A stretch of 64,000 nucleotides of DNA from a virus: IMG/VR virus record IMGVR_UViG_3300006735_000022, positions 20,936 to 84,935 of that record. One strand, 5' to 3'. Of this stretch, positions 41,073 to 54,327 are shown piece after piece; position 1 is the first letter of the stretch; each line of letters opens with the position of its first letter. A program made the translations under genes and the position numbers. The notes below the pieces were generated by a model. The model made no database searches, had not been told where the DNA came from, and saw only the letters and a program-made list of their open reading frames with translations.

Positions 41073-41164
41073 GTGTGGATTTCCACACTTTCTGTCGCCT
41101 CACCGAGACTAAACAGCGACACTAAACAACAGTCTCTCATACCTCACCTGGAGGGTAGGTGAGG
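41073..41164 (+). promoter_or_regulatory. Structured psbA leader with nested inverted repeats
   Basis: GTGTGGA-TT-TCCACAC (41073-41088) forms a tight hairpin followed by a short T-run. TGTCGC (41093-41098) pairs with GCGACA (41116-41121), and GAGACT (41105-41110) pairs with AGTCTC (41131-41136); these are interleaved, as in an H-type pseudoknot. CCTCACCT (41142-41149) pairs with AGGTGAGG (41157-41164), and an earlier CCTCACC (41098-41104) could compete for the same partner. No known RNA family recognised. Control of psbA translation or mRNA stability is inferred. Confidence 0.5.
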
Positions 41165-41170
41165 AATAAT
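41159..41170 (+). repeat. 12-base leader motif shared with petE
   Basis: GTGAGGAATAAT, 51 bases before the psbA ATG, recurs exactly at 46664-46675, 46 bases before the petE ATG. It overlaps the right arm of the last psbA leader hairpin. Confidence 0.5.
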
Positions 41171-41209
41171 TTACCGGTGTTCCCCGCACTAATACATAAC
41201 CCTTTTTCA

Positions 41210-46709: not shown

Positions 46710-47033
46710 ATGAAGTTCTTTTTCGCACTTCTTGCTACATTATTTCTTGCTGCACCAGCATGGGCAGTCGATGTGCAGATGGGTTCCAACGGGAACCTAG
46801 TCTTTGATCCCTCAGAGGTTACTATCTCTGCCGGGGAGTCAGTTCATTTCGTAAACAACATGCTTCCACCTCACAATGTAGTGGTAGAAGATCATCCAGA
46901 AATTTCTCACGAAGCATTGGCAATGATGCCTGGTGAAGAGTTTGATGTAACCTTTGCTGATGCTGGAGACTACACCTTCTGGTGTGGACCCCACAAAGGC
47001 GCAGGCATGATCGGCACAGTCCACGTTCAATAG
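46710..47033 (+). CDS. petE: Plastocyanin
   Basis: Lumenal copper protein carrying electrons from cytochrome b6f to photosystem I. Signal peptide of 19 residues ending AWA for transfer to the thylakoid lumen. Copper ligands H55 (PPHNVV), C92, H95 and M100 ([11 protein letters not shown]) are intact. 107 aa. It has its own promoter and a shared leader motif with psbA. Ferredoxin follows five bases downstream. Confidence 0.96.
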
Positions 47034-47038
47034 TCTCC

Positions 47039-47329
47039 ATGTATAAAGTCACAATTCAAACCTCCGAAGGCGAAACTCAGACCATTGAGTGTGCCTCTGA
47101 CCAGTATATTCTCGATGCCATTGAAGAAGCAGGTGTTGACCTGCCCTATTCCTGTCGTGCTGGTGCCTGCTCCACCTGTGCTGGCAAGGTAGTAGAGGGA
47201 AAAGTAAATCAAGAGGATCAATCGTTCCTTGATGATGATCAGATTGAAGAAGGATTTCTCCTGACATGCGTTTCATATCCTGAAAGTGATGTCACTATTC
47301 TTACTGAGCAGGAGGAATACCTTTACTAA
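47039..47329 (+). CDS. petF: [2Fe-2S] ferredoxin
   Basis: Plant-type ferredoxin: cluster ligands C39, C44, C47 and C77 ([11 protein letters not shown] and LLTCVSY). [18 protein letters not shown] start, 96 aa. It takes electrons from photosystem I and can supply reductases such as bilin reductases or ribonucleotide reductase. Co-transcribed with petE. Confidence 0.96.
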
Positions 47330-50662: not shown

Positions 50663-50671
50663 TGGTATACT
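50663..50671 (+). promoter_or_regulatory. Extended -10 promoter of the riboswitch transcript (TGGTATACT)
   Basis: TGn-TATACT extended -10 with weak -35. Transcription would start about 50677-50679, just at the 5' end of the riboswitch aptamer. Confidence 0.6.
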
Positions 50672-50676
50672 AATAC

Positions 50677-50734
50677 CTACGTTCATCCAGAGCAATCTGG
50701 ACGCAAGTAAGTCGCGGAACGGAGCGTTCATCCC
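50677..50734 (+). promoter_or_regulatory. Glutamine riboswitch (glnA / Downstream-peptide type)
   Basis: P1: CGTTC (50680-50684) with GAACG (50717-50721). P2: TCCAG (50686-50690) with CTGGA (50697-50701). The joining GGACGCAAGTAAGTCG and GAACGGAGCG are the conserved core I know from glutamine-binding glnA and Downstream-peptide RNAs. CGTTCATCC recurs at 50725-50733, so GAACG can pair either with the aptamer or with the downstream copy (three-base loop), next to the GGAG SD and ATG at 50735: a visible expression platform. The following gene is a short ORF, as typical. Confidence 0.85.
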
Positions 50735-50899
50735 ATGTTAGTAGAATCACTTCTATATGTCTCAGTAGCTTGTCAACAAGCCGAAGGCATTGTCCTTAGG
50801 ATGAGAGCAAACGAGAAACTCTCCGATGCTATCAAAGTTGAACTAGTAGAGACCATGAAGGAGGCAACTCCTGAATGTCCATGGGACGCAAACGACTAA
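50735..50899 (+). CDS. 54-aa riboswitch-controlled downstream peptide
   Basis: ATG two bases after the riboswitch. Helical peptide MLVESLLYVSVACQQAEGIV, then LRMRANEKLSDAIKVELVET and a CPWDAND end. In cyanobacteria glutamine riboswitches control small proteins that inhibit glutamine synthetase; I cannot show that this one does so. I recall similar peptides in other marine cyanophages. Confidence 0.78.
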   Translation: MLVESLLYVSVACQQAEGIVLRMRANEKLSDAIKVELVETMKEATPECPWDAND

Positions 50900-50940
50900 A
50901 GGAACGGACCTAAAAATCCAACTACTTTAGGAGTAAACTT

Positions 50941-51108
50941 ATGAACACCCTAAATCTGATTCGGAAGCAGATCCAAAAGGCATCTGCTGTTCACGACGCA
51001 CAGATTACTCACACTGCATACCGTGGTGTAGAGTATGACACACGTTGTGTAGAATCCAAAGAGACCCACGGTACTTTCTGCTATCGTGGTAAGACCTACG
51101 CTAAGTAG
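50941..51108 (+). CDS. DUF4278-like small protein, 55 aa
   Basis: Strong SD TAGGAG eight bases before the ATG. HTAYRGVEYDT and CYRGKTYAK are the paired YRG-x-x-Y strands of DUF4278, a short family found mainly in cyanobacteria and their phages. Follows the riboswitch peptide by 41 bases and ends just before a terminator, so both may form one glutamine-responsive transcript. Confidence 0.75.
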   Translation: MNTLNLIRKQIQKASAVHDAQITHTAYRGVEYDTRCVESKETHGTFCYRGKTYAK

Positions 51109-51130
51109 GATTTACTCAACTCTATGGGGA

Positions 51131-51157
51131 GGGAAGGTTTGACACCTTCCCTTTTTT
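51131..51157 (+). terminator. Rho-independent terminator of the riboswitch operon
   Basis: GGGAAGGT-TTGAC-ACCTTCCC (51131-51151) followed by six T. TATACT at 51162-51167 immediately follows and may restart transcription for the next gene. Confidence 0.9.
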
Positions 51158-51173
51158 GTTTTATACTATGCTT

Positions 51174-51326: not shown

Positions 51327-51970
51327 CTGTAAAACTTATCAGCATCACACCTGATTCTGAGCAGACGATGGCATACATTGCTCGCGTGAGCAATCCTGCT
51401 AATCAGGAGAACGAAAAGTATTCTGGTCTGCTAAAGTATTGCATCAAGCACAACCATTGGAGTGTGTTTGAGCAGGCAACAATGACCCTGGAGATCTCTA
51501 CGACCAGGGCAATCGCAGCTCAAATCCTGAGACATAGATCGTTCACATTCCAAGAGTTTTCTCAGAGATATGCTGACACAAAACTGCTGAAGGATAACAT
51601 CCCTCTGCCCAAGTTGCGGCGACAAGATACTAAGAACAGACAGAATAGTATTGATGACCTAGACCCTGAGGTTGTTGATAGATTGGAACGACAGATGCAG
51701 ACGTTGTTCTCATCTTCACAAGCACTGTACAATCAAATGATTGATGTTGGTGTGGCAAAGGAGTGTGCAAGAATGGTGCTCCCACTCTGTGTTCCCACAA
51801 AAATCTACATGACAGGCTCATGTAGGTCATGGATCCATTATATTGATCTGAGGTCTGCCCACGGCACTCAGAAGGAACACATGGATATTGCTGAGGCATG
51901 TAAGAATATCTTTATCGAACAGTTCCCTGCAGTGAGTGAGGCACTTGAATGGGTAGAATCTGCGGACTAA
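51323..51970 (+). CDS. thyX: Flavin-dependent thymidylate synthase
   Basis: Methylates dUMP to dTMP with FAD and folate. The signature R70-H-R-x7-S80 (RHRSFTFQEFSQRY) is intact; ICMTGSCRSWIHYIDLR-type C-terminal block is present. 215 aa. Supplies dTMP for phage DNA. Overlaps the carbamoyltransferase gene by 22 bases. Confidence 0.96.
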   Translation: MTVKLISITPDSEQTMAYIARVSNPANQENEKYSGLLKYCIKHNHWSVFEQATMTLEISTTRAIAAQILRHRSFTFQEFSQRYADTKLLKDNIPLPKLRRQDTKNRQNSIDDLDPEVVDRLERQMQTLFSSSQALYNQMIDVGVAKECARMVLPLCVPTKIYMTGSCRSWIHYIDLRSAHGTQKEHMDIAEACKNIFIEQFPAVSEALEWVESAD

Positions 51971-52941
51971 ATCTTTCTCACAATGGATCCCTCGCCATCC
52001 TTGAGGGTGGTGAGGTTGAATTTTATTTGGAGGAGGAACGTGTCAGTCGTGTCAAACGTGACAGATCTGCACGTACATTGGCAGCACAATACTTGGACGA
52101 TGATTTAGATGTAGTTACTATCTGTGATTGCTACACCACATATAATCTTGAGAAATATATTCTCAGGACTAAGCAGGCAAATGAGATCATTGATCTTGTA
52201 AAGTCAAGGGGACTAACTCTCAAGGACTATCGCCATCGGCATCATGAATGTCATGCTGCTAATGCATACTACAATTCAGGATTTACAGACGCTGCTGTCA
52301 TTGTCATGGATGGCAAAGGTTCTCTCCATAAACACAAGGACTTGAAGTTCTGTGAGACAGAGAGTATCTTTGATGTCAATGATGGTAAGTTTGAATCTGT
52401 ATTCAGGCATTACTCTACCTTCTGGAGTGAAGATGAGTCTAAGAAATTAGAGTCACCCTTCTGGGATGATGGTAATTTCTACAGTAATAGAACTAGCATC
52501 GGTCAGGCATACCGTAGGGTGTCACGATACTGTGGGTTTGATGAGACAGATGCTGGTAAGACCATGGGACTGGCATCATATGGTGCAGCACCTGTAGATC
52601 TTTTTGAGGAGGTCAATGGTCACAGTGTATGCTCAGAAGAATTGAGTCCTGAAGGTAACACTACATCATACACTGGACACCCGTATCACCCAGAGGATCT
52701 AGCATATAGGTTGCAAAAGTCTGCCGAGAATCATGCTCTGTATATGCTAGAGAAAGCATATGAATTGACGGGTAAGGAGAACTTTGTACTAACAGGTGGG
52801 TTCTTTCTCAACTGTATGTCAAACTATGAGCTACTCAAAACTGGCATAAATTTATATGTAGACCCACTTGCTTATGATGGTGGACTTGCCATCGGATCTG
52901 CACTTCTAGAACATTATGAGAACTCTTTTCCTCGGTCCTGA
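51949..52941 (+). CDS. Carbamoyltransferase N-terminal (Kae1-like) domain, separate ORF
   Basis: GLNLSHNGSLAILEGGEVEF, the metal motif H98-x-x-x-H102 (RHHECHAANAYYNSGF), VIVMDGKGSL, DAGKTMGLASYG and LTGGFFLNCMSNYELL are the ASKHA/Kae1-like domain of NodU/TobZ-type carbamoyltransferases, which pass carbamoyl from carbamoyl-adenylate to an acceptor hydroxyl. The usual C-terminal domain is missing here and encoded by the next, overlapping ORF (26 bases). Confidence 0.88.
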   Translation: MGRICGLNLSHNGSLAILEGGEVEFYLEEERVSRVKRDRSARTLAAQYLDDDLDVVTICDCYTTYNLEKYILRTKQANEIIDLVKSRGLTLKDYRHRHHECHAANAYYNSGFTDAAVIVMDGKGSLHKHKDLKFCETESIFDVNDGKFESVFRHYSTFWSEDESKKLESPFWDDGNFYSNRTSIGQAYRRVSRYCGFDETDAGKTMGLASYGAAPVDLFEEVNGHSVCSEELSPEGNTTSYTGHPYHPEDLAYRLQKSAENHALYMLEKAYELTGKENFVLTGGFFLNCMSNYELLKTGINLYVDPLAYDGGLAIGSALLEHYENSFPRS

Positions 52942-53512
52942 ATACGATCTCTCCTTTGTAGAGGGTGATGATGTAACTTACGAAGACGTAGCAGAAATCA
53001 TTGCAGGTAAGCAGGTAGTAGCACTGTTTCAGGGTAGATCTGAGGCAGGACCCAGAGCACTGGGCAATAGGTCATTGCTCTATGACCCACGAGATCATGA
53101 AGCACAGCAGAAAGTAAACAAGATCAAGAGGCGTGAGGAGTGGAGACCATTTGCTGCCAGCATCATGCTTGAGCATGCAAATGATTGGTTTGACATGCAA
53201 GGACTCGATGAGTCACCGTTCATGATGTATGCCATGGATGTTCGCCCACCGGTGTGGCATAAGATTCCAGGGGTGATGCACGTTGATAAGACTTGTCGGA
53301 TTCAAACTGTTACTAAAGAACAGAATGAACATTACTACAACCTGATCGAAGCATTCTGGGACAGAACAGCAGTCCCCTTGCTCTTCAATACTTCTTTCAA
53401 CTTAGCAGGTGAACCACTAGTGGAGTCACCACAGGATGCATTCAAAACATTCTATGGTTCTGACATACCATACCTATACTTTCCAGAGGTAGGAAAGCTG
53501 GTGCGAAAATGA
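52916..53512 (+). CDS. Carbamoyltransferase C-terminal (YrdC-like) domain, separate ORF
   Basis: VALFQGRSEAGPRALGNRSLL, then VNKIKRREEWRPFAASIM and LFNTSFNLAGEPLVESP are the hallmark blocks of the carbamoyltransferase C-terminal domain, which makes carbamoyl-adenylate from carbamoyl-phosphate and ATP. Own start in a 26-base overlap, so translational coupling is likely. 198 aa. Fusion to the previous ORF would need a frameshift. Confidence 0.88.
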   Translation: MRTLFLGPEYDLSFVEGDDVTYEDVAEIIAGKQVVALFQGRSEAGPRALGNRSLLYDPRDHEAQQKVNKIKRREEWRPFAASIMLEHANDWFDMQGLDESPFMMYAMDVRPPVWHKIPGVMHVDKTCRIQTVTKEQNEHYYNLIEAFWDRTAVPLLFNTSFNLAGEPLVESPQDAFKTFYGSDIPYLYFPEVGKLVRK

Positions 53513-54327
53513 CTTTGCTATTACAAAAAAGTGGAAAAAAAACTCGGGCAAAAAATTTGCTCCTAGGGTTGAACATATCCAACAATGGATCAGCATGTCT
53601 GTTGGAGAATGGAAAACCAGTGTTTTACTTGGAAGCAGAGCGTCTGTCATATAAAAAGCATGATTTTGACATCAGGTGGTTGCTTGACAAGTTACCTGAC
53701 TGTGACATCAAACACGTTGCAGTCTCTGATGCATACTGGAAGCGTGGTGATAAGCAAGTAGAAAATATCAAGATGCTTGCTGCTGTCAAGAGAAAATATC
53801 CTGGTTGTAGGTTCTATGACTACAGAAAGGACCATCACCTCACTCATGCTGCATGTGGTTTCTACAACTCAGGATTTGAGTCTGCCACTTGTATTGTTGT
53901 TGACTCTAATGGGTCAAAGACTTCTGCTGGACTTGAGATTGAGAGTATGTTCTTTGCACCTACCTGGGAGGTAATTCATAAGACCATGTTCTCTCCTGAT
54001 AATATTGGATTTGGTAGAAGATATGAGATGGCATCCTCTGCATATGGGTGGCATTATATGGATGCAGGTAAGGTCATGGGTAAGAGTGCATATGATTCTG
54101 AACCTGCAAAATCATTACAAAGAGAGTGGCAAGAAAGAGTTTTAGAATTAGTAAGCATGGCACCCACAGATGAGATTGTATTTGCAGGTGGATGTTTTCT
54201 AAACTGTGTTGCAAACTATAATACCCTCAAGAAATTTCCTAACAAAAAACTTTATGCTGAACCCTTAGCACATGATGGTGGCACCGCCATGGGTGCTGCT
54301 TATCTTGCATATCATGCCAACGATTGA
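53509..54327 (+). CDS. Second carbamoyltransferase Kae1-like domain, 272 aa
   Basis: LLLGLNISNNGSACLLENGK, H109-x-x-x-H113 (KDHHLTHAACGFYNSGF), CIVVDSNGS, MDAGKVMGKSAYDS and FAGGCFLNCVANYNTL repeat the Kae1-like layout of the ORF at 51949, but no second YrdC-like domain follows. It may share the activator domain encoded upstream. The 5' end contains copy 2 of the 16-base repeat, read as SGKKTR. ATGA overlap with the previous stop. Confidence 0.82.
   Translation: MTLLLQKSGKKTRAKNLLLGLNISNNGSACLLENGKPVFYLEAERLSYKKHDFDIRWLLDKLPDCDIKHVAVSDAYWKRGDKQVENIKMLAAVKRKYPGCRFYDYRKDHHLTHAACGFYNSGFESATCIVVDSNGSKTSAGLEIESMFFAPTWEVIHKTMFSPDNIGFGRRYEMASSAYGWHYMDAGKVMGKSAYDSEPAKSLQREWQERVLELVSMAPTDEIVFAGGCFLNCVANYNTLKKFPNKKLYAEPLAHDGGTAMGAAYLAYHAND
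53532..53547 (+). repeat. Dispersed 16-base repeat, copy 2
   Basis: TGGAAAAAAAACTCGG inside the first codons of the second Kae1-like ORF, followed by GGCAAAAAATTTGCTCC, which contains GCAAA/TTTGC. This may be a former intergenic element captured as an N-terminal extension. Confidence 0.8.

Follow-up and report, generated by a model that had tools for sequence, protein, structure and literature searches.

Riboswitches are usually drawn as untranslated sensors located 5′ of the gene they control. Structured RNAs with a coding loop include group I introns, which carry endonuclease open reading frames (ORFs) in peripheral loops, and tmRNA. However, these are ribozymes and a tagging RNA, respectively, whereas the element described here is predicted to be a metabolite-sensing aptamer whose helices contain or adjoin the start and stop codons. 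Nothing on point concerning ORFs inside riboswitch aptamers was found in the openly readable literature.

Cyanobacterial glutamine riboswitches sit mainly 5′ of DUF4278 genes and are ON switches for DUF4278/gifB genes; in the glutamine synthetase inactivating factor IF17, DUF4278 makes up the N-terminal domain (PMC6316151). Two Rfam families are relevant. The glnA riboswitch (RF01739) occurs in cyanobacteria before DUF4278/gifB and gifA-like genes, and in the genomes considered here its loci lie 5′ of DUF4278 proteins (MKLTYRG...) and IF7-like proteins. The Glutamine-II (Downstream-peptide) family (RF01704) was found in picocyanobacteria 5′ of short DUF4278 proteins. Phage-borne examples have also been described. 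A glnA element in the T4-like cyanophage S-CREM1 matches Rfam with 44.0 bits over 99 nt (PMC9964418), a size and score like those of the plain nested form described below; the available part of that report gives the Rfam match alone, with no description of an internal ORF, a nested hairpin, or a target gene. Likewise, the methylophage Melnitz carries a glutamine riboswitch, which the available part of its description ties to a tmRNA gene rather than to DUF4278, with no ORF reported within the aptamer (PMC9004378).

Identity and outer fold of the window copy

The window analyzed here, a stretch of 64,000 nucleotides, belongs to an 84.9-kb virus fragment of the T4-like cyanophage type (PhotoRC-II RNA; Synechococcus phage relatives). 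The PhotoRC-II RNA lies at positions 41081 to 41177 (61.8 bits, well above the cut-off) and is present in the related locus L088 too. All features listed in an earlier note on this DNA (an aptamer core, an extended −10 element, an exact repeat, a 54-aa ORF, a DUF4278 ORF, and a terminator) are present, all on the plus strand. The extended −10 element TGGTATACT (50663 to 50671) puts the predicted transcript start near 50678, where the aptamer begins on its 5′ side, and many relatives have TTGACT-17-TATAAT at the equivalent promoter position. The repeat CGTTCATCC occurs at 50680 to 50688 and 50725 to 50733, with no further copy on either strand of the window. An intrinsic terminator follows at 51126 to 51156; a strong promoter-like sequence, TTGACA-17-TATACT (11/12; 51139 to 51167), overlaps it and precedes a small ORF and a thyX gene.

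The proposal that the element is a glutamine riboswitch gains support from relatives. A whole-window Rfam search at the gathering threshold did not find the aptamer core, and a search of 701 bases gave matches that stayed below the gathering scores of both families: 25.8 bits for RF01704 (E = 3.6e-4; gathering score, 33) and 24.0 bits for RF01739 (E = 0.0096; gathering score, 35). Insert-free relatives of the same element, however, scored 38.4 to 43.6 bits with RF01739 across the full span, above the cut-off of 35, in 7 of 9 loci. The low RF01739 score of the window copy is attributable to the ORF that splits the aptamer, and the internal ORF likewise explains why Rfam misses other insert-bearing copies. 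The window element, carried by a T4-like cyanophage, is likely a type I glutamine riboswitch (RF01739) with a protein gene enclosed in its aptamer, and it would be expected to bind glutamine. It shares the RF01739 core (CGUUCA-P2-GACGnAAGUA-P3-nAAGGAACG) and, as in hosts, has a DUF4278 gene downstream and a platform at the Shine-Dalgarno (SD) sequence. It differs from the host elements in that P3 is enlarged into a hairpin (H) and an ORF-bearing arm, while P2 of phage copies may carry another ORF.

Type II identity was considered and rejected, as the score lies below the cut-off and the first half lacks the type II stem. Some likeness to RF01704 exists: CGCA follows P2, a pseudoknot partner GGAACGG is present, and short DUF4278 ORFs accompany the element, as in marine picocyanobacteria. 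However, the window copy reached 25.8 bits against the required 33, and the full element of plain relatives fits the type I model; among these relatives, only L124 (35.7 bits) and L108 (34.0 bits) exceeded 33 with RF01704, and most matches spanned half of the element. The helix CURAAG:CUUYAG, described below, could mimic the type II stem.

All three RF01739 helices are present, and covariation was seen in P2 and P3. P1 is formed by CGUUC (C1; 50680 to 50684) and GAACG (G2; 50902 to 50906), as indicated by RF01739 alignments of orthologues and by RNAalifold. Its strands lie 220 nt apart with the ORF between them, and being nearly invariant, it contributes little covariation. The GAACG beside the ORF SD sequence (G1; 50717 to 50721), previously taken for the partner of C1, pairs elsewhere. 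P2 is a hairpin (UCCAGA-GCAA-UCUGGA; 50686 to 50701), followed by J2/3 (50702 to 50709), which reads CGCAAGUA where the family consensus is CGGAAGUA. Most loci have CGCAAGUA in J2/3, with the phage C for G, and RAAG in J3/1, compared with CGGAAGUA and GAAG in the RF01739 consensus; as J2/3 departs from the consensus, ligand affinity or specificity could differ. One plain-arm relative, L219, has the canonical CGGAAGUA and a CUGAAG/CUUAAG platform with one mismatch.

P3 joins AGUCG (50710 to 50714) to CGACU (50893 to 50897) in the RNAalifold structure, its 3′ strand spanning the final Asp codon of the ORF and extending one base into the stop codon. J3/1 (AAAG, 50898 to 50901; consensus, GAAG) holds the other two bases of that codon. 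P3 is paired in all 172 loci compared, and each of its 15 variants is compensated or G-U, including AGTCA/TGACT (6 loci), AATCG/CGATT (2 loci), and G-U intermediates. The P3 arm is of ORF length in 157 of the 172 loci, which hold 10 of the 15 variants, and in plain-arm loci RF01739 itself pairs AGU... in the first half with ...ACU in the second half. With 12 insert-free relatives, RNAalifold returned P1 (C1:G2), P2, P3, H, and a further stem, P2′, unprompted, with 24 pairs and none broken. At the level of sequence comparison, the architecture is nested, with covarying helices, an ORF within the aptamer, and a helix at the DUF4278 SD sequence. In the window, the nested aptamer (−71.0 kcal/mol) lies 5.9 kcal/mol above the minimum free energy (MFE) structure (−76.9 kcal/mol), so ligand or tertiary energy would be needed for it to form; in L108, it is part of the MFE structure itself.

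The ORF-bearing P3 arm

The 54-aa ORF (50735 to 50899; phrog_504, E = 1.4e-24), which the earlier note had placed downstream of the aptamer, lies inside its P3 arm. Seventy-seven IMG/VR loci were collected via the 54-aa protein alone, and wherever the upstream sequence reaches far enough, aptamer-like sequence lies 5′ of the ORF in all but two of them (L030 and L032, which have the C2 copy only). As these loci were selected by protein, the association of ORF and aptamer is not due to chance. Differences at the three codon positions (0.41/0.21/0.55) support the ORF being coding. Its product is predicted to form two helices (pLDDT, 84), and a PDB search with the models of this protein and of the DUF4278 ORF gave no match at E < 1. 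A role in glutamine synthetase control had been suggested for this peptide; nothing ties it to that enzyme, but such control remains plausible through the linked DUF4278 gene.

The 3′ half of the aptamer, GGGACGCAAACGACTRAAGGAACGG (50884 to 50908), overlaps the ORF stop codon and is found in 77/77 protein-selected loci, as are the constant GACGCAAACGAC and the P1 strand G2, which is invariant 3′ of the ORF; C2 and the final codons are constant too. Through the stop codon the sequence reads GGGACGCAAACGAC-TRA-AGGAACGG in all 77, the sole variation being A or G at the second stop codon position, and then diverges downstream. Codon usage points the same way: the body of the ORF has GAT and GAC in a ratio of 300 to 76 and AAT and AAC in a ratio of 169 to 55, while its final four codons are almost invariably GAC GCA AAC GAC. 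In the larger set the search pattern partly dictates the first of these four codons, a bias of which the 77-locus set is free.

Within the arm, hairpin H (GAACG-GAG-CGUUC; 50717 to 50729) pairs G1 with the second copy of the repeat (C2) as its 3′ strand. Its loop GAG and the preceding G form the SD sequence of the ORF (GGAG; 50721 to 50724). Of 142 loci whose P3 arm contains an ORF, 127 have GAG or GAGC as this loop, compared with 0 of 13 lacking one; on comparative grounds, the H-loop SD sequence is a feature acquired along with the ORF. Stem P2′ pairs UCCCAUG (50731 to 50737), which includes the start codon (50735 to 50737), with CAUGGGA (50880 to 50886), inside the final codons. Across the ORF, P2′ gave 45 double-sided compensated cells versus 19.1 ± 4.5 in shuffled data (0/500), a shuffle test that is inflated by the relatedness of the loci, although P3, H, and the platform, which changed independently, agree in direction. 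Covariants of the arm stems P2 and P2′ across ORFs include TCTTATG/CATAAGA, TCTCATG/CATGAGA, TCCTATG/CATAGGA, and TCCCAATG/ATTGGGA, and 5.7 to 5.8 of 7 pairs form in P2/P2′, compared with at most 4.4 in a slide control. In some sequences, the outer pairs of P2′ are not maintained.

The likeness of the two halves allows other folds. Tandem glutamine aptamers (C1:G1 and C2:G2) that bind cooperatively, with the P2 loop of the second one containing the 54-aa ORF, would fit the identity of C1 with C2 and of G1 with G2, each half being aptamer-like; tandem glnA RNAs are on record (PMC2864571), and every pair of the tandem scheme is also standard in 12 plain loci. Against this scheme stand the 8 of 172 loci with CAACG/CGTTG, in which both tandem P1 helices are broken (C1:G1 and C2:G2) while both nested ones, H (G1:C2) and C1:G2, are kept. 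The covariation of AGUCG with CGACU between the halves is also unaccounted for by the tandem scheme, and RNAalifold picks the nested fold. We consider tandem aptamers improbable and dropped them, as RF01739 aligns over the whole span and the covariation in P3 and H fits the nested fold only; the tandem fold could occur as an alternative conformer, and an old duplication is suggested by how alike the halves are. The same eight loci bear on a still less probable reading, that of the earlier note, in which the first half alone (50680 to 50721) switches the 54-aa ORF and the second CGTTCATCC competes for the GAACG beside the SD sequence. The repeat and the SD sequence are real, and the short leader, when folded without constraints, does contain the C1:G1 P1 (−19.1 kcal/mol, versus −17.7 kcal/mol with H enforced). 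However, this half scores below both Rfam cut-offs in the window, it depends on the C1:G1 pairing broken in those loci, and the constant GGGACGCAAACGACTRAAGGAACGG at and after the stop codon would be left unexplained. The second CGTTC is instead the 3′ arm of H, both arms of which change together in the eight loci.

Modular arms and distribution

Approximately 200 nonredundant loci share the arrangement C1-[P2 arm]-A3-linker-C2-[arm]-B3-SD-DUF4278. An arm can be a short hairpin or can span approximately 145 to 240 nt and contain an ORF, and all four combinations of P2 and P3 arm were found: short/short (L088), short/long (the window), long/long (L011), and long/short (L097 and L223). In 44 of 172 related loci, a second ORF is located within the P2 arm; phages with such an ORF include syn9. 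Its start codon lies in the 5′ strand of the arm stem and its stop codon in or adjoining the 3′ strand; in six loci (L094, L144, L158, L166, L174, and L223), the ORF ends in ...GRK and stops at the aptamer UAA of GCAAGUAAG. The UAA of GACGCAAGUAAG serves as the stop for these P2-arm ORFs, which run into the aptamer.

P3-arm ORFs belong to phrog_504 and related families and P2-arm ORFs to phrog_6471; an hhalign comparison shows a distant relationship between the two groups (probability, 85%; E = 5.8e-6). Proteins of both phrog_6471 and phrog_504 have a hydrophobic N terminus and two conserved cysteines (L105, L118, L144, L174, and others). The modular arms suggest a route for gaining small ORFs while keeping the switch.

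Relatives of the 54-aa protein are encoded by phages in 309 GenBank records, and hundreds of ocean cyanophage records, those of the isolates syn9, S-SM2, and S-RSM4 included, share the conserved arrangement. The full system is present in syn9 as gp196 (P2 arm), gp197 (P3 arm), and gp198 (DUF4278). A pattern search of 300 host-family genomes did not find the ORF-in-aptamer layout, with the proviso that type II hosts with an insert would escape the pattern. On the basis of these genomes, a host origin of the layout was rejected: the pattern matched once and its reversed control four times, and the single match is not surrounded by a phage-like element. Matches from a contig scan in unrelated genomes were also dismissed as chance-like and serve as a control, in which 1 of 80 has CGTTCANY at most 260 nt upstream.

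The DUF4278 gene and its predicted control

The 55-aa DUF4278-like ORF (50941 to 51108; phrog_545) is the likely regulated gene, and not the 54-aa peptide, as had been supposed. Its own match to Pfam PF14105 (21.7 bits) is below the cut-off of 25.3, and 37 of 41 orthologues of the protein match DUF4278. Phage DUF4278 proteins comprise 36 to 61 aa; IF17 combines DUF4278 with a C-terminal part that binds glutamine synthetase, and it inhibits the enzyme. Compared with IF17, the phage proteins have a DUF4278-like domain; neither a separate C-terminal part nor a solved relative was found. The ORF is modeled as a helix and strands (pLDDT, 81; pTM, 0.38). As in hosts, the gene lies 3′ of both plain and ORF-bearing elements. 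Most likely, the gene under switch control is this ORF, related to the N-terminal part of IF17. Its protein probably acts on host nitrogen assimilation and possibly on glutamine synthetase.

An anti-aptamer helix joins CUAAAG (50896 to 50901) to CUUUAG (50925 to 50930) in the window MFE structure, taking up bases that belong to P3, J3/1, and the stop codon, and extends as far as the DUF4278 SD sequence (AGGAG; 50929 to 50933), part of which it includes. As it uses P3 and J3/1 bases, it is incompatible with the folded aptamer. The variable stop codon base and its platform partner occur as TAA/TTTAGG in 54 loci (A-U), TGA/TTCAGG in 60 (G-C), TGA/TTTAGG in 21 (G-U), and TAA/TTCAGG in none (A-C). 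A-C combinations number 0 among 121 loci versus 22.4 in shuffles, to which the above inflation by relatedness applies, and when the states are mapped by parsimony onto a tree built from the downstream DNA, R changes 17 times and Y 25 times. Plain loci without an ORF share the CURAAG:CUUYAG pairing, which differs in sequence from the CGCCTC/GAGGCG-like platform of hosts. In addition, GUUCAU at C1 (50681 to 50686) is the exact complement of AUGAAC at the DUF4278 ORF start (50941 to 50946) and is paired with it in the computed MFE structure; ATGAAC is the start hexamer in 114 loci checked. This pairing is a possible extra OFF-state contact masking the DUF4278 start codon.

We propose that, without ligand, CURAAG from P3 and J3/1 would pair with CUUYAG and mask part of the DUF4278 SD sequence. 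With glutamine, the aptamer would sequester CURAAG, and the exposed SD sequence would allow translation of DUF4278. The mutual exclusion of platform and aptamer, together with the ON switches of hosts (PMC6316151), suggests that glutamine turns DUF4278 on. In the folded aptamer, the start codon of the arm ORF would be paired in P2′, and a ribosome on this ORF would have to open P2′, P3, and P1. As the start codon is paired in the fold and translation would unfold the aptamer, the products of the arm ORF and of DUF4278 are predicted to be alternatives, their translation being mutually exclusive. A bolder reading, to which we give somewhat less than even probability, is an aptamer built around one or two complete genes, in which inner translation and sensor folding would exclude each other and glutamine would choose among the two or three proteins that a single viral transcript can yield.

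The same stop codon helix could be read as a device for translational coupling, with ribosomes that stop in J3/1 melting the anti-SD helix and turning DUF4278 on while glutamine controls initiation at the arm ORF. That the stop codon belongs to the covarying CURAAG:CUUYAG helix and that the ORF SD sequence is located in the H loop would both fit coupling, which we regard as less probable than control by the aptamer fold. Plain forms lacking an ORF nevertheless retain both this helix and the DUF4278 gene, which argues for control independent of ORF translation. At the other extreme, the constant blocks around the small ORFs might be kept merely by homologous recombination between phages, as a shuffling cassette without any folded-RNA role. 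Indeed, on the DUF4278 tree the arms alternate many times between ORF-bearing and plain states (19 and 10 changes by parsimony), but compensatory substitutions, seen in the anti-SD helix as well as in P2, P2′, P3, and H, make this the least credible of the readings considered; cassette exchange may instead be the route by which ORFs move while the RNA function is retained.

Whichever product is made, coding sequence lies within the arms of an aptamer, and its start and stop codons belong to conserved helices. Through a DUF4278 protein, a host target of the same riboswitch, phage infection would be linked to host glutamine sensing. As the isolates syn9 (gp196-gp197-gp198), S-SM2, and S-RSM4 carry the arrangement, these predictions are directly testable. 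Elsewhere in the window, inspection by eye points to phage electron transport genes, plastocyanin-like at 46710 to 47033 and ferredoxin-like at approximately 47040 to 47329, and, at 51949 to 54327, to neighboring ORFs that look like carbamoyltransferase-type pieces (NodU/CmcH-like), possibly one gene that was split or duplicated.
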